The position numbers and the translations under genes were made by a program. The notes beneath the pieces are model-generated. The model searched no databases, was not told the DNA's origin, and was given only the letters and a program-made list of their open reading frames with translations. This document shows positions 1-36,800 of a DNA stretch of 36,800 nt, one piece after another. Location: positions 1 through 36,800 of the IMG/VR virus record IMGVR_UViG_3300034096_000409; one strand, written 5' to 3'. The number at the start of each line of letters is the position of its first letter. The stretch's first letter is position 1. Origin of the DNA: a virus.

Positions 1-25
1 GCGCGTATTTCGTCAATTCGTGCTT
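1..25. repeat. Terminal direct repeat (left copy), contig circularisation overlap
   Basis: These 25 bases are identical to positions 36776-36800. A reading frame on the minus strand continues without a break from the left end of the window into the right end when the two copies are merged, so the overlap marks a circular or circularly permuted molecule. A 25-base overlap is more likely an assembly overlap than a biological terminal repeat. Confidence 0.9.
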
Positions 26-202
26 AATGTTCGCAAGCGTGCAAAATTCGTCAGCAAGTACACGCGCATTGCTTGAGTTGAATTTCGTGCGCGCAATTTC
101 AGCAAGCGCATACGCATCACGCACGCATTGCGTCAAATTCGCGCCTTCGCCGTACTCACTTACGCTGTACTTGTTAATCCCGATGTGAAGCGAGTACACC
201 AT
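1..202 (-). CDS. Caspase/metacaspase-like cysteine protease, N-terminal part (continues at 36800)
   Basis: This is the first part of a 243-residue gene interrupted by the contig ends. The ATG at 202-200 follows the stop codon of the upstream secreted-protein gene by one base (TAACATG), so translation is probably coupled. The first 59 codons lie in 202-26 and the frame then enters the 25-base overlap. The N-terminus has the peptidase C14 layout: a beta strand followed by IGINKY (residues 7-12), a conserved Asp-Ala helix start (DAYALAEIA, about 29-37), and TLANIKHEL (55-63), the usual segment before the catalytic-His strand. No signal peptide or membrane segment is visible. Catalytic residues are in the other part. 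Confidence 0.85.
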   Translation of the reverse strand, partial: MVYSLHIGINKYSVSEYGEGANLTQCVRDAYALAEIARTKFNSSNARVLADEFCTLANIKHELTKYA

Positions 203-203
203 G

Positions 204-854
204 TTAATTGCGAAGCGCTTGAATGATGGCAGGCGGTGGTATAATCTGCTGCTGCAAATCTATCGTCACCCAGCGGCCATTTGGTGCGCGGTAAAAGTCC
301 AATGCGCGCCCCGTAGTTCCATAATTAGCCAGCCGAGTGACATTACCCAGGCAATACGCCAAACGCACCGTTTCAGAGCCGATTTTATACCTGAATGCGC
401 CTGTAGTTGGATTGAATGAGAATACAATGTTTTGGGCTGCTGCTGCACCGTCCTTGATAGTCCAGCCGGAAGCGGTAAAGTATTTGCCCTCCACAGTTGA
501 CGTATCCACCTGCATGGCTATTTGATTAAGTGCCGACTTTCCTACCTGCGTTTGAAGTAGTCCATCCTGCCGGATTATTTCACGAATTTTCGCGCCGTTT
601 GCGGATAGTAGTATGGCATCTGATGCCATTGTGGATGCCTGACTTCTGTACACATTTATTGCGCCCTGTACGACTGCTGTTGTGTCGCCGACTTTCGTTA
701 CAGATAGCACGCTATTGCCATTGTCGTAGGTTTGCAGACGATTGGCGAAGTAGATTCCGGATGTTTGAGTGAGCCAGGATGAATCCTGAATGATGGTTTG
801 CGCCTGTGCGGTCGTGATGAATGCGAAGAAAAAAACGATGATTGTATTTTTCAT
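204..854 (-). CDS. Secreted protein of unknown function between tail fibre and caspase-like protease
   Basis: 216 residues. The N-terminus is a clear Sec signal peptide: Lys at position 2, a hydrophobic core (residues 4-14), and a TAQAQ-type cleavage region near residue 19. The mature part is predicted by eye to be beta-rich with no family I recognise and a Pro-Pro-Pro stretch near the C-terminus. It lies 33 bases after the tail-fibre gene and its TAA is one base before the ATG of the caspase-like protease. Position and coupling suggest a role with the fibre, in the envelope, or as partner or substrate of the protease; these are inferences from order only. Confidence 0.8.
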   Translation of the reverse strand: MKNTIIVFFFAFITTAQAQTIIQDSSWLTQTSGIYFANRLQTYDNGNSVLSVTKVGDTTAVVQGAINVYRSQASTMASDAILLSANGAKIREIIRQDGLLQTQVGKSALNQIAMQVDTSTVEGKYFTASGWTIKDGAAAAQNIVFSFNPTTGAFRYKIGSETVRLAYCLGNVTRLANYGTTGRALDFYRAPNGRWVTIDLQQQIIPPPAIIQALRN

Positions 855-887: not shown

Positions 888-3311
888 TCAATGTAAGTCC
901 ACCCAAGCACCTGCAGCCCTTACTTGCAATTTGTCGGTGCTGCTGTTATAGATAACAAGCCCGTTTGCGGGTGATGATATTGCGTCACGTTGAGTGGTAG
1001 TCATACGCGGGAATAGTACGCCCTGTGTGGTACTGCTTATATCAAGTTTTGCGGATGAATTTGGGGAAGCCGTACCCATTGCTACAATTCCATCATCGCG
1101 CACCATAAGCGCGTTGTTTGTTCCTGATGAATTATGTATTTGTGCAGACCATGTATTTGTTGTTGCTCCTGGCCCGCGAAGACGAAGAGCCCCATTCGTT
1201 GCAGATACAGCACCACCAGCATTAACATCAAGTCTGTACCCGCCATCTGTATATGTACTCCCATTCTGTATTGTTGCATTTCCTGTTACCCATATCCTGA
1301 ATACAGACCTTCCGGTAAGTATTCCTGATGGAGCATAGTTAGCAAAGTCGTATAAAGGCCCAGTTGGAACAAGTCCATTTGCGTACCTGGCCATAAATTG
1401 ACAAACAGGTATATTCACATCGTTTTTTGAATCAACTATAAACCCTCCCTGATAACCATCAGAGGCGCCAGCGTTAGATTTCATCCAAAATAAAGGCGCA
1501 AAAATGCCTGTTGTGCTTGTTGATATTTGAAAGAAAGCATCTGAAGATGGGGTTCCACTTCTTAATATTTGGAAATATGGAATATTATTAACTGTTGGTA
1601 TTAGTTGTAAGCAAGAGCCAGGAGAAGAAGTGCCAATACCAAGCCTGCTATTTGTATTGTCCCAAAACAAATTTGCGTTACTTGACAACGTACTACCTGC
1701 ACTCCAAAATGCAACACGGGTAGCCGTTCCGCTGCCTCCGACTTTGTTGTTAAACGTAGTCCAATCCGCACTACTTAACGCCCCCCTGTTTGTTGCGCTG
1801 GCCGTAGGCAGGTTGAACGTATGCGTTGAGGTGGCAGATGATATATTAAAATCAGAACCTGCCGTTCCTGTCGCAAATGTTTGTGTGGAGGCGGTCAGGC
1901 CATTTAGTGATGTGATGCCACCACCGCCACCTCCGGACGAATTAATTGTGTACACGCCCGATGATTCACTCACCGTCACATTCGTCCCCGCCGTAATCCC
2001 CACCACCGGAAGCGTCACGGTTTTTGCCGCCTGGTTGTCGTTTGATAGTGATGCGCGTAAGGTTTGCCCTGAAAGACTGAACGTGTCAATGGTTTGTATT
2101 TCGTTGGTTACAGAGCCGTCAACCTCCGTGCCTGTGACGGTTATCGTGCTTCCGGCTGTTGATGCGCTGTTGATGCCACCGCCCGCGATGGTTACTGAAC
2201 CGCCTGAATTGGATAGCGTAGCGGTATTGGTAGCCACCGATAGCGTTTGCAGTTCATTGGTCGCGCTCTGATCTGCTACTGTTGCCGCCTCCCATCGTGA
2301 ATTGCCGGACACATAGGTAAGCACCTGGCCATTGGTCGGCGATGGTGCGTACACGTTGTGCAGTTCATTCAGTTCGTAGCCATTTTGCACATTCACAAAG
2401 ATAACCCCTGTTGATGCGTGCTTTCTAACGCAAAAGCCGATGAACACGCCGTGGTTCGGCGCTTCGGGCCTTACGGCTGTCATTGCTCCGGCTGTATCCT
2501 TTGATAACCACACAGCGCCGCCTTCTGTCAGGTTTGACGTGTTGATGTTACGCACAAGTCCGAATGTCGTACAAAAGCCTTTGTTTCCACCTGTGACAGT
2601 TTCAGTCATTACGCCGAGCGTTTTGGAGCTTGTCGCTTCATTGTTTGCGCGGGCGTATAAAACCGTTTTATTGTCGCCTGTAGAGCCTGTAATGTACACG
2701 ACCTTACCATTATCAAGCCCGCCGTTTGTAGCGTGCTTTACAGGCTGCACAAGCTCCTGCCCTAATTGAAGTGTTACATTACCGCCCTTCAGGCCCAGGT
2801 CAAGTGTGCCATCGTCACTATTCCACCGCATTGCACCCACGCCACCGGAATAGGTTTGATTTGAATAGAATATCAGGCGTGGCACCGTGTCAATACTGAT
2901 AGTGTCGTTTGCGTCAATGTCAATACCCGTACCTGCGTAGTATGTAGCACCACCGCCACCACCGCCTGCAACCTGCTTCCATTGCGTGCCGTTGTAATAG
3001 TACAGTTCGGGTGTGGAGCAGCCATTTACCGCAAACACGGATTGAGCGTAACCGGGCGTGTAGGCAGGTGCAGCACATCCGGCTACAATGTCAATGCCTT
3101 GACCGAGCGTGCGCCATGTGGTGTTTGCCGCGCTCCATTGGTAGACGCGCCCAGATGCAAGGTCAACCCGAAGGCGTGAACCCGTTGATGATGGTGCGCC
3201 CGATGGCACGCCGGATTCGTAATTGATTCCGGCTGTAAATTGTATTTGGGCGCTTGATGCTGTTGTAATCAGCGCAAGTGCGGCAAATAAGATGATGTGT
3301 TTATATTTCAT
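888..3311 (-). CDS. Tail fibre / receptor-binding protein carrying a Sec signal peptide
   Basis: 807 residues. It has Gly-rich linkers (for example residues 116-121), short Ser/Thr/Asn-rich beta repeats, and a C-terminal GVLFPRMTTTQRDAI motif followed by LVIYNSSTDKLQ. That motif is common at the ends of Bacteroidota phage fibres and of host surface proteins. It lies 14 bases after the tail-tip gene, as expected for a fibre. The odd point is a typical signal peptide at the N-terminus (MKYK, hydrophobic core, cleavage after ASSAQ near residue 22), unusual for a structural protein assembled in the cytoplasm. A start further in would remove it, but I see no better start. Confidence 0.75.
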   Translation of the reverse strand: MKYKHIILFAALALITTASSAQIQFTAGINYESGVPSGAPSSTGSRLRVDLASGRVYQWSAANTTWRTLGQGIDIVAGCAAPAYTPGYAQSVFAVNGCSTPELYYYNGTQWKQVAGGGGGGATYYAGTGIDIDANDTISIDTVPRLIFYSNQTYSGGVGAMRWNSDDGTLDLGLKGGNVTLQLGQELVQPVKHATNGGLDNGKVVYITGSTGDNKTVLYARANNEATSSKTLGVMTETVTGGNKGFCTTFGLVRNINTSNLTEGGAVWLSKDTAGAMTAVRPEAPNHGVFIGFCVRKHASTGVIFVNVQNGYELNELHNVYAPSPTNGQVLTYVSGNSRWEAATVADQSATNELQTLSVATNTATLSNSGGSVTIAGGGINSASTAGSTITVTGTEVDGSVTNEIQTIDTFSLSGQTLRASLSNDNQAAKTVTLPVVGITAGTNVTVSESSGVYTINSSGGGGGGITSLNGLTASTQTFATGTAGSDFNISSATSTHTFNLPTASATNRGALSSADWTTFNNKVGGSGTATRVAFWSAGSTLSSNANLFWDNTNSRLGIGTSSPGSCLQLIPTVNNIPYFQILRSGTPSSDAFFQISTSTTGIFAPLFWMKSNAGASDGYQGGFIVDSKNDVNIPVCQFMARYANGLVPTGPLYDFANYAPSGILTGRSVFRIWVTGNATIQNGSTYTDGGYRLDVNAGGAVSATNGALRLRGPGATTNTWSAQIHNSSGTNNALMVRDDGIVAMGTASPNSSAKLDISSTTQGVLFPRMTTTQRDAISSPANGLVIYNSSTDKLQVRAAGAWVDLH

Positions 3312-13247: not shown

Positions 13248-14467
13248 CAGGATGCGGCTGTGATAAGGTGCTTGATTGCTGCTGTGTTGATGCATTCGCC
13301 ATCGAAGCGCATCCATCCCTGGAAGCCGACAAGTCCGTTCTCGCTGTACAGTTCATCACGGCGTGCGATAATCATATCCTGCACCATGCGGACAATGTAC
13401 TTGCTGAAGTCACCCACAAGAATCAATTTGGATGAAGCGTTGATGCTGCTATCCATGTCCTGATTGATGTAGTAGCGCGTGCCGTCAATCAGGTCGGGCT
13501 GACCTGCTACGTATGAAGGCATCCACAGCGGGCGGTTTTGGCTGTCAACGAGCTTCTTGATAGCAAGCAGAACGGCATCATTGAACATGAATCCAAACTG
13601 CGGGCTGTTGCGATATGCCGGGTCAATGCTGTGCTTCAGGTCAAGGATTTCCAGATACGTGAAGGCGGTTGCAGACGCGGCTGTCTTACCGAGTGTGGAA
13701 GCGGTCACAATGCCGTTTGGATCGCCGGAACCGTCACCCGTGGTACACTCCTGATTCAGGATACGACCGAAGCGAGGTGCAAAGGCGTTGCGCACTTCCT
13801 GTTCGATGTTGTACGCATTGTCCTGAAGCAACTCATAGGACACCTTTACGAGCGTGCCGTACTTGTATGCGTCAAGCTGCTTTTGGCCGAATGTCAGGTC
13901 TTGCACGGTGAAAGATGCTGCCTCACCAACCTTTACAGCTTTGGTGGTGGTGTCATCTTCAGTTGGCCAATACAGAGTGCTGCCTGTTGCGGTGCGAAGC
14001 ACACGACACGCCTGAAGGATGCCGCTGTAATCGAGCATTGCGCGCTCGATTTCGGGCTGCCATTCATCAGGAACCAAGTAGCCACCGAGCGAATCGGTAC
14101 CTACAAGCTGATTGCTTGTTCCGCGCTTTTCGATCAGGATACTGCGCGTTTCGTTGTCCAGGTTACCCCATCCTATGCGCAGGAAATCCGTGTAGGCGCT
14201 GCGATAATCGCGCTCTTTGCCTTTGTCGGCTGCCTTTGGCGCATTATCAAATTTGGCTTTGACGTTGCGCGCCTCAAGCGCCTCAATCGCTTCATTTGCC
14301 TGAATAGACGCTGTGAGTGCTGCCTCATCAGCCTCCATCTTGCGCCATGATGTGAGTTCTTCCTCACTCATAGCACGCCCTTCTGTGGCTGCTTTGGTGG
14401 CGGTCGCTTTCATCTGTTCGACAATCCGCGCCCGTGAATCGTAAAGGGTTTGAATACCAGTTACCAT
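13247..14467 (-). CDS. Major capsid protein, HK97 fold
   Basis: 406 residues. Residues 1 to about 105 form a charged, helical delta-domain-like region that in this family acts as scaffold and is removed by the prohead protease. The mature part begins with SLGGYLVPDEWQPEIE and includes LTFGQKQLDAYKYGTLVKVS and RRDELYSENGLVGFQGW, segments of HK97-type capsid proteins. The gene directly follows the protease gene with a one-base overlap (TAATG). Confidence 0.94.
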   Translation of the reverse strand: MVTGIQTLYDSRARIVEQMKATATKAATEGRAMSEEELTSWRKMEADEAALTASIQANEAIEALEARNVKAKFDNAPKAADKGKERDYRSAYTDFLRIGWGNLDNETRSILIEKRGTSNQLVGTDSLGGYLVPDEWQPEIERAMLDYSGILQACRVLRTATGSTLYWPTEDDTTTKAVKVGEAASFTVQDLTFGQKQLDAYKYGTLVKVSYELLQDNAYNIEQEVRNAFAPRFGRILNQECTTGDGSGDPNGIVTASTLGKTAASATAFTYLEILDLKHSIDPAYRNSPQFGFMFNDAVLLAIKKLVDSQNRPLWMPSYVAGQPDLIDGTRYYINQDMDSSINASSKLILVGDFSKYIVRMVQDMIIARRDELYSENGLVGFQGWMRFDGECINTAAIKHLITAAS

Positions 14468-15366
14468 TAGTTAGTTTGTTTGCGTTGAAAGATAGCTGCT
14501 TTCCGGTCAAGAGCGCGGATTAGCAGATTGTAAGTTTCTGTAAGTTCGGCATTAACCGACCTTTGATTTTCAGTTGTGCTTAGCGCCTGTATAGCTGCTG
14601 CGAGCGTTGCAACAAGCGCTGTATTTTCATCAGCACGCGCATTCAAAAGCGCTGCCAGGTCATTGGCTGCTGACAAATCAGGATTGACTGATGCAATCAT
14701 GGTCATCTTGTCAGCGTATCCTTTGAGTTCAGCCACCGATTCATTCAGGCATTCAATTGTGCCTGTGATTGCCTCAATAGCCTGTGCCTTTGGCGGCATC
14801 TCTTCATAGCCTTCGCCGTTGCGCTTTGCCATCTCCAGCGACCGCATCGCAACTGATGTATCCGGATTGGCAGGATAGGTAACGGGTGAAGCATCGAACA
14901 CGCGCTTTACTTTGGTAATTACTCGATGCTCTTTGCCGTCTTTCATGCGCCACTCGTCACCGACTGACATACCCGCCTCATTGCGCGCAATTTGGAACGA
15001 CCACGAACTTTGATCTATGTCACCGCGCTTGAGCGCTTCAATGAGATTCTGTCCGGTCGGGCTGTCCGGTATGGATGCCCTGTACCACATTCCCGTCTCA
15101 TCCGTGCCAACTGTGGCTGTGCCTGACTTCGTGCGACCAATAATCAGATTGGGATCGTGGTTAAACAGGATGCGCACGTCTGACATATCAGCCTCCGAAA
15201 GTGCAGAGCGCTGTATCTCTTCGGTGAAGTATCCCATGTCGTAGGATTTACCCCACTTCAGCGCATAGCCAAAAACAGACGGTTTGCCGTCCTCCGTCAT
15301 CCGGATTTCCACGCCTTCAGTAAAGGAACGTATTTCAGGCTGTAGCGCTTGCTTGCTGTTGTCCAT
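14467..15366 (-). CDS. Prohead maturation protease, HK97 family (S78), with long C-terminal extension
   Basis: 299 residues. The protease core has the catalytic His in ILFNHDPN (about residue 70) and the Ser in the SSWSF segment (about 138-142), equivalent to the family's S-F motif, followed by VFDASPVTYPANPDTSVA. It would cleave the capsid delta domain inside the prohead. Residues from about 185 to 299 form an extra helical, Ala-rich and acidic region that could serve as a second scaffold segment. The start overlaps the portal gene by 32 bases. Confidence 0.9.
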   Translation of the reverse strand: MDNSKQALQPEIRSFTEGVEIRMTEDGKPSVFGYALKWGKSYDMGYFTEEIQRSALSEADMSDVRILFNHDPNLIIGRTKSGTATVGTDETGMWYRASIPDSPTGQNLIEALKRGDIDQSSWSFQIARNEAGMSVGDEWRMKDGKEHRVITKVKRVFDASPVTYPANPDTSVAMRSLEMAKRNGEGYEEMPPKAQAIEAITGTIECLNESVAELKGYADKMTMIASVNPDLSAANDLAALLNARADENTALVATLAAAIQALSTTENQRSVNAELTETYNLLIRALDRKAAIFQRKQTN

Positions 15367-20890: not shown

Positions 20891-20952
20891 GTATCAATTG
20901 AATGAGCGTAAACAATGAGCGACAAAGCAACTACTACTGCAAATACAATCAT
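20863..20952 (-). CDS. 29-residue single-pass membrane peptide
   Basis: MIVFAVVVALSLIVYAHSID followed by a basic end (TWQRKNKRR). One hydrophobic helix of about 15 residues at the N-terminus and a strongly basic C-terminus, so the C-terminus should face the cytoplasm. Its ATG overlaps the stop of the secreted-protein gene as ATGA, which is why I take it as real. It may modulate the neighbouring membrane or lysozyme proteins. Confidence 0.55.
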   Translation of the reverse strand: MIVFAVVVALSLIVYAHSIDTWQRKNKRR

Positions 20953-21449
20953 AATTGCCTCACGTTTAACTGAACGCCCCAATACAGCGCCCTGCGTTTG
21001 ATTTCCTCAATGCTGTACCCCTTTACCTTCCCTGCCTTTGTTATCGCTGTTTCAATCTGATCTGCGTATTGTTCAGCAGTCATATTCAACTCAAAGAATC
21101 TGATAGGATTGATAACTTTTAGGTCAAAGCCGTATCCGGATGCCATGCCTTTGGCGGTCTGCTCCGCCTGATACCACCCCTGAAGCACGCTATACGTTTG
21201 TGCTGCTGCCTCTTCCTGAATCGCTACCTCATCCATGCCGTCGTCAAACTGCCTTAATGCAGAGATGGTTAGGTAGTAGTTCGTTGTCAGGTTGTCACGC
21301 GCTTCTGCCTGTTGCGCTGCCGGGATGGTTGTAGGTACGCAATCCAGTACGGCGTTGATGGTCATTGTTTCAGGTCGTGCAATGACGGTCTGTGCGCTGA
21401 TTGAGGATGCTGTGAAGATGAATGCAAAGAGAATGATGATGTGTTTCAT
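20949..21449 (-). CDS. Secreted protein of the envelope block, unknown function
   Basis: 166 residues. The N-terminus is a Sec signal peptide (MKHI, hydrophobic core to residue 12, cleavage after SISAQ near residue 20). The mature part is mostly helical, with Gln/Ala-rich stretches and no recognised motif. It follows the lysozyme-like gene after a 27-base spacer rich in GT repeats and is linked to the next tiny membrane gene by an ATGA overlap. Confidence 0.75.
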   Translation of the reverse strand: MKHIIILFAFIFTASSISAQTVIARPETMTINAVLDCVPTTIPAAQQAEARDNLTTNYYLTISALRQFDDGMDEVAIQEEAAAQTYSVLQGWYQAEQTAKGMASGYGFDLKVINPIRFFELNMTAEQYADQIETAITKAGKVKGYSIEEIKRRALYWGVQLNVRQL

Positions 21450-21476: not shown

Positions 21477-22268
21477 TCAATAATGTTTCAAGTCACCGCG
21501 TCCAGCAATGCTGTTGTATGCCTTGTCCGCGTATTTCTTTGCCTCTTTGAAGTCTCCAGTATAAAGCGCCCACTCAAAGCGCCTGCTTGTTTTATGGTTA
21601 TCGGTGGCTGCGTGGCACTTCATCCAGGCGCGGCGTGCATCACCCGTTTTGTTTCCTGCTTTCAGGTGCTGATACAGGGCTGATTTCTTGACGTTACCAT
21701 AGCCCCAATTGAACGCAAGGCTTTGAACCGCCCAAAGTTCGTGCCGTTCAAGATGTGGCAGGTCGGCGCTGATGGTCTCTTTGAGGCTATCAAAGGTGTC
21801 GTACATCATTGCCCTCGCTTGTGCCTCCGTTACTTTGTACCCCTGTTCATCTACCACCTGCTTCCATTTTGGAGGCAGGTATTTGATACGGTTGCCGTAC
21901 CCGATGGCAGGTGAATCACCATCCATGTACGATTCCAGTTCTTTACCGCGCCTGCCTAACGCCTCACGGCGCTTTGTCTCCAGCATCACATACTTAAACA
22001 AGTCGTGGCTGTTTGTATGCTCCGGCACTTTGGCCGCTGCCTTTGCTTCAGGCGCTGTTGCCATCAGTCCGAACTGCGTATCCTCTTCGGGCTGATCGGT
22101 GAATGCAAGTACATCGCGGCTTTCGCGCTCTTTGGTGGCGTAGTTATATGCGAGTGCTGTAATTGCGCCCACAATGACAAACCTTTTATTAAGGAATGGT
22201 GGCGGCTCTGATTTTTGAACCCGCCCGCCTATTTCTTCATAGTGGGCATCTTCGTAATGCTGTTTCAT
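21477..22268 (-). CDS. Membrane-anchored GH24-like lysozyme
   Basis: 263 residues. One Ala/Gly-containing membrane segment (29-44) precedes a linker and a C-terminal lysozyme domain (about 90-263). The domain has YMDGDSPAIGYGNRI (114-127), equivalent to the T4-lysozyme 'Y.D..G..TIGYG' region, and LWAVQSLAFNWGYGNV (178-193), the GH24 'L.sfaFN.G' helix. The Thr of the Glu-Asp-Thr triad is Ala here and the catalytic Glu is not at its usual spacing from Asp116 (Glu97 is the best candidate). The weakly hydrophobic anchor recalls signal-anchor-release endolysins. It is linked to the upstream membrane-protein gene by ATGA. Confidence 0.7.
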   Translation of the reverse strand: MKQHYEDAHYEEIGGRVQKSEPPPFLNKRFVIVGAITALAYNYATKERESRDVLAFTDQPEEDTQFGLMATAPEAKAAAKVPEHTNSHDLFKYVMLETKRREALGRRGKELESYMDGDSPAIGYGNRIKYLPPKWKQVVDEQGYKVTEAQARAMMYDTFDSLKETISADLPHLERHELWAVQSLAFNWGYGNVKKSALYQHLKAGNKTGDARRAWMKCHAATDNHKTSRRFEWALYTGDFKEAKKYADKAYNSIAGRGDLKHY

Positions 22269-34430: not shown

Positions 34431-34456
34431 TGCCCGACCTGAAATCAGATCGGGCA
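34431..34456 (-). terminator. Rho-independent terminator after the endolysin gene
   Basis: On the minus strand an 11-bp stem (TGCCCGATCTG with CAGGTCGGGCA, one U-G pair) has an ATTT loop and is followed by TTTTTG. It separates the endolysin from the exonuclease transcript. Confidence 0.87.
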
Positions 34457-34491: not shown

Positions 34492-35040
34492 TTACAAAAC
34501 AGCCTCTATGGCTTTGGCTGCTTTTTCTATGATGTCGGCATGGAACACGCCGTTAACTGTGCGCCTGGCATTGAAATAATCGCACCTTTCAGTATTAATA
34601 TACTGACTTAAGCGCTTACCTGTAAACAGCCCCTCGTTCATGCCTTTTACCAAAACAAAGGCAGCGATAGTTGGTTCAAGCGCTCTATCAGGGAAATTCA
34701 CCAAGTCAGCGCCCGTAATGTCGCTCCAAATTTGGTAATTCTTTTTCCACGTCAATTGAACGTAGCCACGCCCAAAGTACCCGGTATTCCAGTACCTGTC
34801 TTGCATCGCCCTTACCGGATGGCCTTCAGCCGCTCTAAATTCGCGTATAGGCTTGAATCGGGATTCATGCCAACAGGTAGCAAGCATATAGGCAAACATT
34901 CGCTTGTCGGTGATGCTGAAGCGGTCACAGTTCTCCGCTATCAATTTAGGCGCCTGCTCCTGCACAGGCGTAAACCTGGCAGACTTCAATGCCTTTGCGA
35001 GTGCGCGGTAAAATTCAGGCGTGATCTGTTTTGCAAACAT
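34492..35040 (-). CDS. Endolysin, GH19 chitinase-like
   Basis: 182 residues from 35040; the in-frame Met at 35076 overlaps the promoter. The GH19 marks are CWHES (56-60, catalytic Glu59), YFGRGYVQLTWKKNY (88-102) and NARRTVNG (157-164). Phage GH19 enzymes cleave peptidoglycan glycan strands. No signal peptide is seen, so release depends on the holin at 35175-35639. It has its own promoter, separate from holin and spanins. Confidence 0.9.
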   Translation of the reverse strand: MFAKQITPEFYRALAKALKSARFTPVQEQAPKLIAENCDRFSITDKRMFAYMLATCWHESRFKPIREFRAAEGHPVRAMQDRYWNTGYFGRGYVQLTWKKNYQIWSDITGADLVNFPDRALEPTIAAFVLVKGMNEGLFTGKRLSQYINTERCDYFNARRTVNGVFHADIIEKAAKAIEAVL

Positions 35041-35073
35041 GGTTTCTTGTTTCTCATTCTTATTTGTGTCGGA

Positions 35074-35081
35074 CAAAGATA
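35074..35081 (-). promoter_or_regulatory. Promoter -7 box of the endolysin gene
   Basis: TATCTTTG on the minus strand matches TAnnTTTG exactly; the -33 region is only T-rich. The ATG lies 33 bases downstream. Confidence 0.65.
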
Positions 35082-35174: not shown

Positions 35175-35639
35175 CTACCCTTCGGCAGGCTCAATATTTT
35201 TTACATCCTTCAGGAAGCGGATAAACGGATTGAGGATGTTAATTGCCAGCACCGAAAGCAGTACGCCCCAATCTTTGGCGTATAAGGCAGATACAATCTG
35301 TTCGGCTGTGCCATCCGGTACGGTGAATCCGTAAAGCGCTGCAAAGCCTAAAATAGCAGTAACAAGTGACACCCAAAAAGTAGTGTTTGATAGAATCAAC
35401 TTTGCGTTGATCTTCCCGCCTTTCTTCGTGAAATTCCATATCGGGAACACGATGGCTGAAACCAGCAGGCCCGTGACGGCAAAGATGCCACCGGATGAAA
35501 GCGTGGTTTCAAAATCGCCCGCAATTACAGACGGGTCTTTGGGAAACTCAATGCCTGTGGCTGCGAAGGCTGCCAGGATGGCATAGGTGATGGATGCGAT
35601 GAATCCGGGCGATTTTGGATCGAATTTAGTTTTTGACAT
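35175..35639 (-). CDS. Holin-like membrane protein
   Basis: 154 residues with four likely membrane helices (about 13-30, 50-70, 86-106, 122-142), a basic N-terminus and a short acidic end. It is the last gene of the late operon, directly after two spanin-like genes and before the endolysin, which makes holin the natural reading. The sequence itself has no signature that I can name. Confidence 0.72.
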   Translation of the reverse strand: MSKTKFDPKSPGFIASITYAILAAFAATGIEFPKDPSVIAGDFETTLSSGGIFAVTGLLVSAIVFPIWNFTKKGGKINAKLILSNTTFWVSLVTAILGFAALYGFTVPDGTAEQIVSALYAKDWGVLLSVLAINILNPFIRFLKDVKNIEPAEG

Positions 35640-35650
35640 GATGTCGTGAT

Positions 35651-35971
35651 TTACTGTGTTAATGATGTGTCACAGGTCGCACTACACGCGCCTGCCTGTT
35701 TGTTCATTTTTGCTTTGCGAAGCTCCAGCGCAATACGTGCGCGCATGGCATCATTCGCGCTGTCTGCCTGCTCCGCGATTGCGCGTATCTCCGGTGTGCT
35801 GAATATTTGCGCCTGTTCGTCATTGCGTCTGTTCGTGCGTTCATTCGCGTAAACATTCGCGTAATCGTCTGCGTGTGGATCGGTCGGATGCCTGTAATTT
35901 TCTTTCGCGCAATTCGTTATGAAAAACGAAAGAACGAAAGCGAACAAAGTGGAAAGAAGTATGTATTTCAT
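35651..35971 (-). CDS. Outer spanin-like lipoprotein (Rz1-type)
   Basis: 106 residues. The hydrophobic N-terminus ends in FITNC with Cys21 as likely lipidation site (Asn just before Cys is atypical). The mature part is charged, helical and has few hydrophobic residues. The ATG overlaps the stop of the inner-spanin-like gene as ATGA, an arrangement common for Rz/Rz1 pairs. It would link outer and inner membranes in the last lysis step. Confidence 0.7.
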   Translation of the reverse strand: MKYILLSTLFAFVLSFFITNCAKENYRHPTDPHADDYANVYANERTNRRNDEQAQIFSTPEIRAIAEQADSANDAMRARIALELRKAKMNKQAGACSATCDTSLTQ

Positions 35972-36234
35972 TGCGTGCGAACTTTGGTTAATAATTCGTC
36001 ATACTTTGCGCGCTGTTCGCTTACGAATTGCAGCATTTCATTTCTGATTTTTTCGTTGTTCTCTCGCTCTGCTGTAAATCTTCGCTCCCAATATTCGCGC
36101 TCCTGCTGTAACGCCGTGTCACAGTCGCGTTCAATTTCCACTATCCTGCCATACAGCACCCCAATTGCAGCGCACAGGCAAAATATAACCCAATAGGGTA
36201 GATTTTTGGAATTTGGCAATTCGGCTAATGGCAT
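35968..36234 (-). CDS. Inner spanin-like protein (Rz-type)
   Basis: 88 residues: one N-terminal membrane helix (13-29, PYWVIFCLCAAIGVLYG) and then a continuous charged coiled coil (33-85), the topology of inner-membrane spanins. It starts 11 bases after the caspase-like protease stop and overlaps the outer spanin-like gene. Assigned from topology and context. Confidence 0.7.
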   Translation of the reverse strand: MPLAELPNSKNLPYWVIFCLCAAIGVLYGRIVEIERDCDTALQQEREYWERRFTAERENNEKIRNEMLQFVSEQRAKYDELLTKVRTQ

Positions 36235-36245
36235 TTGGCTTTATT

Positions 36246-36800
36246 TCAGGTTAAAAACTTCTTTGCCTTATACTGTCCGGCATTGTGCGCTTCCAGTCGT
36301 GGTGTCTGTGGGTATTTCCACGCGCTTATTTGCCCTGTGGCGAACTTATGCAGTTCGTTGTAGGTTGGTATAGCGTCTTGCTTGAAAAGCTCCTCCAGCG
36401 CCAATGTGAACACGCCGCCCCGGTCGTTCTCATAGGACGGTTGCTTTACCGTGCTGCTGCTCACAGATATGATACTGCATCGAACTTCGGCCATCTTGTT
36501 GGTTGTCGGCTTTATTACAGGCGCTTTGGGCATCTGAATAAAACGCGTTCGGCCTAATGGCTGTGCAGTCCTGAAGCTGGATTCAGAATAGCAGGTATCA
36601 ATTAACCGGACAATCCGCGTGCCCGATCTAAACTGTTTCCAAAATGGAAATAGTTGGAAGTCCCAAAAGACACCATCATACGCACATACGCCTGTTGCGC
36701 GCGTGCCCTGATAATCGTGATACGTGCCGTGTCCGCTGTGCGTGTAAAGCAGCACATCGTTTGCGTTCATCAGGTGCGCGTATTTCGTCAATTCGTGCTT
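36246..36800 (-). CDS. Caspase/metacaspase-like cysteine protease, catalytic part (begins at 202)
   Basis: This part encodes residues 60-243, the overlap 1-25/36776-36800 counted once. It has the catalytic His in YTHSGHG (His83), the Cys in LIDTCYSES (Cys129), then GGVFTLALEEL and a C-terminal YPQTPRLEA, the order and spacing of clan CD peptidase C14 (caspases, metacaspases). The Cys-His dyad is intact. There is no added pro-domain, so it is a minimal 243-residue form. Read alone, the ORF seems to begin at a TTG (36791), which is an artefact of the contig end. Its stop TGA lies 11 bases before the inner-spanin-like gene, so it belongs to the late operon. Confidence 0.88.
   Translation of the reverse strand, partial: KHELTKYAHLMNANDVLLYTHSGHGTYHDYQGTRATGVCAYDGVFWDFQLFPFWKQFRSGTRIVRLIDTCYSESSFRTAQPLGRTRFIQMPKAPVIKPTTNKMAEVRCSIISVSSSTVKQPSYENDRGGVFTLALEELFKQDAIPTYNELHKFATGQISAWKYPQTPRLEAHNAGQYKAKKFLT
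36776..36800. repeat. Terminal direct repeat (right copy)
   Basis: Exact copy of positions 1-25. Merging the copies restores one continuous coding sequence across the joint. Confidence 0.9.

Follow-up and report, generated by a model that had tools for sequence, protein, structure and literature searches.

The window analysed here is a stretch of viral DNA of 36,800 nucleotides whose termini are identical, positions 1-25 being an exact 25-base repeat of 36776-36800 (GCGCGTATTTCGTCAATTCGTGCTT), and the contig closes on itself through this repeat. When minus-strand positions 202-1 are joined to 36775-36246 a single frame of 243 codons is obtained; it begins with ATG, is preceded by a stop codon in the same frame and terminates normally, and it encodes a protein of 243 residues in which IGINKY, SGHG (His83), DTCYS (Cys129), GGVFT and QTPRLE all occur. 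A preliminary description of this DNA had proposed the overlap, the joined frame and these motifs, all of which were found, and had named a break of the frame at the joint as a possibility; this is excluded, as is an assembly artefact, by four other viral contigs (L001, L002, L003 and L006) that carry the gene in one piece with 97-98% amino-acid identity to the window copy. It was also correct that a linear annotation misses the true start, but what is lost is the first 59-67 of the 243 residues, about a quarter of the protein rather than a third. Comparison of the copies within the window family gave dS values of 0.28-0.43, dN values of 0.010-0.017 and dN/dS values of 0.027-0.059, which are comparable to those of the i-spanin (0.02-0.04) and endolysin (0.04-0.08) genes and below those of the neighbouring 216-aa gene (0.11-0.14). 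A chance open reading frame is therefore ruled out and the gene is real and under purifying selection.

Upstream of the protease gene lie the gene for a 216-aa protein, a fibre-like gene and tail genes, and 11 bases after its stop begins a probable lysis cassette (Table 1). The terminator-like hairpin behind the endolysin gene is probably the end of the late operon, although the consensus scan that detected it gave a number of hairpins not above the shuffled expectation. A second lysozyme gene (PF00959, 2e-11) is located at 21477-22268, well away from the cassette, and signal-peptide-like N termini, unusual for a tail operon, occur on the products of 888-3311, 204-854 and 20949-21449 (166 aa). 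No tyrosine integrase or resolvase was detected in the window phage. The C-terminal domain of the fibre-like protein was present in 86 of 149 genomes of Bacteroidia but in one of 143 from the Granulosicoccus class, which served as the control, and the host is therefore probably a member of the Bacteroidota.

Table 1. Positions of the protease gene, its aligned active-site residues and other features of the window
Feature	Position	Strand	Remarks
Protease gene, 5' part	1..202	-	ATG 200-202, first 67 codons; joined frame
Aligned S1-pocket residues Cys26, Asp29	125-127, 116-118	-	Alignment and PMC4357240
216-aa tail-module protein	204..854	-	Signal-peptide-like N terminus; stop 1 base before protease ATG; precedes the protease in both groups of phages that carry it
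Tail-fibre-like protein	888..3311	-	C-terminal domain common in Bacteroidia
Prohead protease, Peptidase_S78	14467..15366	-	The window phage's own
Intrinsic-terminator-like hairpin	34431..34456	-	11-pair stem, T-run, after endolysin; consensus scan
Endolysin, GH19-like	34492..35076	-	PHROG endolysin 2e-23, Pfam Glyco_hydro_19 3.9e-5
Holin-like protein	35175..35639	-	Weak: PHROG holin 1.1e-3, Pfam Phage_holin_1 0.011
Likely outer-membrane spanin lipoprotein	35651..35971	-	By layout; lipobox-like FITNC; 4-base overlap with i-spanin gene
Likely inner-membrane spanin (i-spanin)	35968..36234	-	By layout; membrane helix at the N terminus followed by a charged, coiled-coil-like stretch
Protease gene, 3' part	36246..36775	-	Joined frame
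Asp127, catalytic Cys129	36597-36599, 36591-36593	-	Joined frame and alignment
Ser81, catalytic His83	36735-36737, 36729-36731	-	Joined frame and alignment
25-base terminal repeat	36776..36800	.	Identical to 1-25

Family C14 identity and active site

The assignment of the window protein to peptidase family C14 (caspase/orthocaspase), made in the preliminary description from motifs, is borne out and is well supported, the protein being a divergent member. A phmmer search matched it to GSU0716 (PDB 3bij), a solved C14 fold, with an E value of 1.2e-9, and a PADLOC profile named caspase, for which no defence system is stated, matched residues 3-98 only (3.5e-9). There was no match for the window protein itself in Pfam, NCBIfam or PHROG scans, including none to the prohead protease Peptidase_S78 (Pfam and PHROG), and the homologues and structure show that the family was missed because of divergence. 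The suggested comparison with PF00656 thus gave a divided answer, in that the window protein had no match whereas a phage relative 47% identical to it, in contig L107, matched over its full length with 52.2 bits (8.5e-14; cut-off 21.4). The alignment search returned 189 bacterial relatives, and 48 of the 52 members of the alignment match PF00656. An AlphaFold2 model built with bacterial relatives (pLDDT 71.6) aligned best with 3bij (Z 27.2, rmsd 2.6, 233 residues), followed by metacaspases, MALT1 and caspases. Since a deep alignment could have steered this model a second one was predicted from five phage sequences only and, although it is of low confidence (pLDDT 53), Foldseek and VIA-align again put 3bij first (best Z 14.4) and all the top 50 matches were C14 enzymes; the structural check therefore returned only C14 folds for both models. 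Orthocaspases are prokaryotic C14 enzymes with p20 only and no p10 domain; in the window protein, residues 160-243 can be aligned to the C-terminal halves of 3bij and the metacaspases, in a region where model confidence is low. In a phylogenetic tree the phage proteins form a clade with support of 100/100 on a very long branch (about five changes per column); the tree does not place the origin of the clade, the bacterial set being biased by the search patterns. No close protein was present in the 295 Bacteroidia genomes searched (best E value 2e-20).

The intact Cys-His dyad previously described is confirmed by the alignment, in which His83, Cys129, Asp127, Asp29, Asp74, Asp101 and Asp106 fall in columns invariant across 80 bacterial relatives, with Cys26 and Ser81 in nearly invariant columns. 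His83, Asp127, Cys129, Cys26, Asp29 and Ser81 are kept in both phage lineages, which are only about 50% identical, and the first three are also invariant in 28 further viral C14 proteins. Four residues have been proposed to form the S1 pocket of TbMCA2, namely Cys92, Asp95, Ser156 and Asp211 (PMC4357240), and to these Cys26, Asp29, Ser81 and Asp127 correspond by motif spacing, and also in alignment with Yca1. Cleavage after Arg or Lys is predicted for the window protease because the characterised C14 enzymes other than the animal caspases all prefer these residues (PMC5756287).

The phage branch departs from its relatives at three places around the active site. The acidic DE pair after SGHG is replaced by A-T (columns 94-96 read A-T-G as against D-E-x), columns 106-108 read D-F/Y-Q/E as against D-D-E, so that the second Asp of DDE is lost, and the Gly of CHSG has become Glu (C-Y/F-S-E). 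The lost acidic motif is near-invariant in the bacterial relatives, and the DE pair and CHSG are kept in the 28 other viral C14 proteins and in a protein from a huge phage described below. Under a strict definition a metacaspase has acidic residues after SGHG together with DDE, which are linked to the metal site; the window protein lacks this combination and, judged on its sequence, it is not filed as a metacaspase and its metacaspase type is not assignable. Loss of the acidic motif suggests that metal dependence may differ in the phage branch, and this loss, together with the missing Gly after CysxSer, could have altered activity. With the dyad and S1 residues kept, the protein is nevertheless predicted to be a catalytically competent soluble cysteine endopeptidase.

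Distribution among related phages and other viruses

Absence of the protease from a related phage was observed in one fragmentary relative, a 29-kb contig designated L106, in which the i-spanin gene directly follows the 216-aa gene with no protease between them, the interval of 788 bases in the window being reduced to 59 bases, and no C14 gene was found elsewhere in the fragment. Its proteins are 70% (i-spanin), 72% (holin), 54% (endolysin) and 77% (216-aa protein) identical to those of the window phage. A different pattern was found in two 38 kb contigs, L099 and L107, which encode a tyrosine integrase and are otherwise different from the window phage; of the genes compared in their 16.7-kb loci, only the protease, the 216-aa gene and a segment of the fibre are shared with it. 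Here the protease again lies behind the 216-aa gene, but what follows it is different and there is no lysis cassette; in both protease-bearing groups the two genes are separated by 1 base or overlap slightly. Over 701 bases running from the 216-aa gene into the first bases of the protease gene (L099:5988-6688) the DNA is 89% identical to the window, which in an otherwise different phage is a sign of recent exchange or recombination. The pattern of presence and absence indicates that the protease tracks the 216-aa gene more faithfully than it does the lysis cassette. Its earlier placement in a lysis operon thus holds for the window, where it heads the cassette, but not for the cassette of L106, which lacks the gene, or for L099 and L107, which have the gene and no cassette. 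The protease is an accessory, dispensable gene in a late operon of phages whose hosts are probably Bacteroidota. In contig L007 (1064-1537) about 97 N-terminal residues of the protease are in frame with a C-terminal part similar to that of the 216-aa protein, with head-tail genes next; this fusion may have arisen by natural recombination or be a chimera of the assembly, and is not used as evidence of function.

A scan of IMG/VR with bacterial-type motifs yielded 32 loci, and profile matches confirmed the C14 assignment for 28 of them, so that at least 28 further contigs carry C14 genes (one of them, L132, is the same contig as L011), some of which may be provirus or host-derived. Their products have the canonical SDSCHSG and DE...DDE forms and are not close to the window family. 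Individual genes adjoin those for a portal (L145, L011/L132), a large terminase (L146) and a minor-head/DarB-like protein (L151), and most of those examined adjoin head, packaging or replication genes, with some near transcription genes. The portal protein directly before the C14 gene in L145 (1807-4765) has an ADP-ribosyltransferase-like C-terminal region. In L138 (1065-5729), from an unrelated phage, a tail fibre gene, a 102-aa ORF, a canonical C14 gene and an amidase endolysin gene lie in a row, the last two overlapping by 5 bases. A tblastn search of 50,697 phage records, an isolate-rich collection, gave no match to the window protein, and with four relatives as queries only LR745208 was matched. 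This record (LR745208.1; L092) is a huge phage of 485 kb with an unannotated metacaspase-like C14 gene whose dyad is intact. Searching BFVD returned giant-virus caspases and no significant phage protein.

The preliminary description knew of no characterised phage protease of this type, and none was found in the literature searched, but C14 genes in phages are not without precedent, given the 28 or more viral contigs and a 2012 survey mentioning eight Clostridium strains with metacaspase operons that looked phage-related (PMC3501461). The fold and the chemistry are already known; new, as far as the searches extend, is a phage-specific C14 branch that lacks the acidic motif, is under constraint and lies outside present phage families.

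Possible roles of the protease

To our knowledge caspase-like enzymes, familiar in bacteria and eukaryotes, are almost undescribed in phages, and bacterial caspase-like proteases have been studied as cell-death and antiphage effectors. The interpretation that we prefer, and to which we give about an even chance, is that the accessory late gene encodes a catalytically competent, soluble C14 endopeptidase that acts on a host protein. The enzyme would be made late, together with the 216-aa tail-module protein, and would act in the cytoplasm because it has no signal peptide, cutting after Arg or Lys as do other non-animal C14 enzymes, and it may cleave itself in a low-confidence basic loop at about residues 132-157. 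The target would be a defence component or takeover target of the host rather than the capsid. A host target is preferred because the gene is dispensable to the adjoining tail and lysis modules, because the capsid has its own S78 protease and because patchily distributed phage peptidases have been interpreted as host-directed (PMC7824862). An essential capsid protease was considered and ruled out by the accessory pattern and the S78 enzyme, with which capsid maturation has no need of the C14 protease. Several points count against this interpretation: counter-defence genes are not usually placed late, the gene's place at the head of the lysis cassette and the gene order in L138 also fit a role in lysis, the lost DE...DD motif and Gly could have altered activity, and absence of the gene was seen in a single, fragmentary relative (L106).

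Lysis and the virion are indeed serious rivals, and position alone cannot separate them. That the protease times or completes lysis, by cutting a holin, spanin or endolysin precursor or an envelope or cytoskeletal protein of the host, is rather unlikely; the i-spanin start codon so close behind its stop, with holin, endolysin and terminator-like hairpin beyond, and the C14-endolysin pair of the unrelated L138 speak for it, but L106 keeps i-spanin, holin and endolysin without a protease, L099 and L107 have no lysis gene behind theirs and the C14 genes of other viruses mostly adjoin head, packaging or replication genes. It is likewise unlikely that the enzyme is linked to the virion, either processing the 216-aa protein or fibre or entering the cell with the infecting particle as a packaged early effector. 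In favour of such a link, both protease-bearing groups have the 216-aa gene immediately before the protease, C14 genes elsewhere adjoin portal (L145, L011/L132), minor-head/DarB-like (L151) and tail fibre (L138) genes, and packaging is frequent among effectors whose genes lie next to those of the virion (PMC5512222). However, L106 has the fibre and a 216-aa protein without any protease, by eye no extra segment is present in the 216-aa protein or i-spanin of the carriers, and a signal-peptide-like N terminus is present on the fibre and on the 216-aa protein but not on the protease.

Homology to bacterial C14 proteases, the match to the PADLOC caspase profile and the tyrosine integrase of L099 and L107 would fit a bacterial suicide or defence protease captured in order to kill the host or to act on competitor phages, and the orthocaspase MaOC1 arrests growth and cleaves an antitoxin (PMC7935541). 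Such a cell-death effector is very unlikely, since no sensor, NACHT, gasdermin or toxin-antitoxin partner was recognised beside the protease (nor were TPR or CRISPR parts among the neighbours in the window or in L099/L107), and the window phage, with no integrase or resolvase detected, probably has no lysogen to protect. A pseudo-protease that keeps the fold for binding, without catalysis, is also very unlikely. The missing DE/DD acidic residues and the replaced Gly behind CysxSer would be in keeping with it, and a 2017 review warns that a dyad alone is no proof of activity (PMC5756287), but dyad and all four S1 residues are retained between lineages about 50% identical and dN/dS is low (0.027-0.059).

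More broadly, C14 proteases might have been taken up by phages on repeated occasions to serve as host-takeover effectors that are made late or associated with the virion, the window branch without the acidic motif being aimed at bacterial cell-death or defence proteins, a generalisation that we consider doubtful. A constrained phage C14 family, together with C14 genes beside virion and lysis genes elsewhere, suggests that viruses also make use of the caspase fold. Current annotation misses the family, as Pfam (for the window protein), PHROGs, NCBIfam and tblastn of an isolate-rich phage collection gave no match. The existence of related phages with and without the gene at the same site makes its role directly testable, and with it a new means by which a phage may control its host.

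Of the known systems, GSU0716 of Geobacter sulfurreducens (3bij) and the 80 bacterial relatives share with the phage branch the C14 fold, the GxN...Y start, CxxDA, SGHG, D-x-C-x-S and what may be a p10-like end, but identity is 21-28%, the phage branch is about 30 residues shorter and neither the DET and DDE acidic motif nor CHSG is present in it. The metacaspases Yca1, TbMCA2 and AtMCA9 have the fold and the S1-pocket residues in common with the window protein, which differs in lacking acidic residues in the metal-site region. MaOC1 of Microcystis aeruginosa is also a prokaryotic C14 enzyme in which the S1-pocket Cys is kept and a basic P1 preference is expected; it is a cellular enzyme with a connection to a toxin-antitoxin pair (PMC7935541), whereas the window protease is a late phage gene. 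The eight Clostridium operons (PMC3501461) are alike, by description only, in placing C14 genes in phage-related operons. The 28 IMG/VR proteins and that of LR745208 resemble the window protease in dyad and S1 residues, and several lie near virion genes, but they retain the canonical SDSCHSG and DE...DDE motifs and are not close to the window family.
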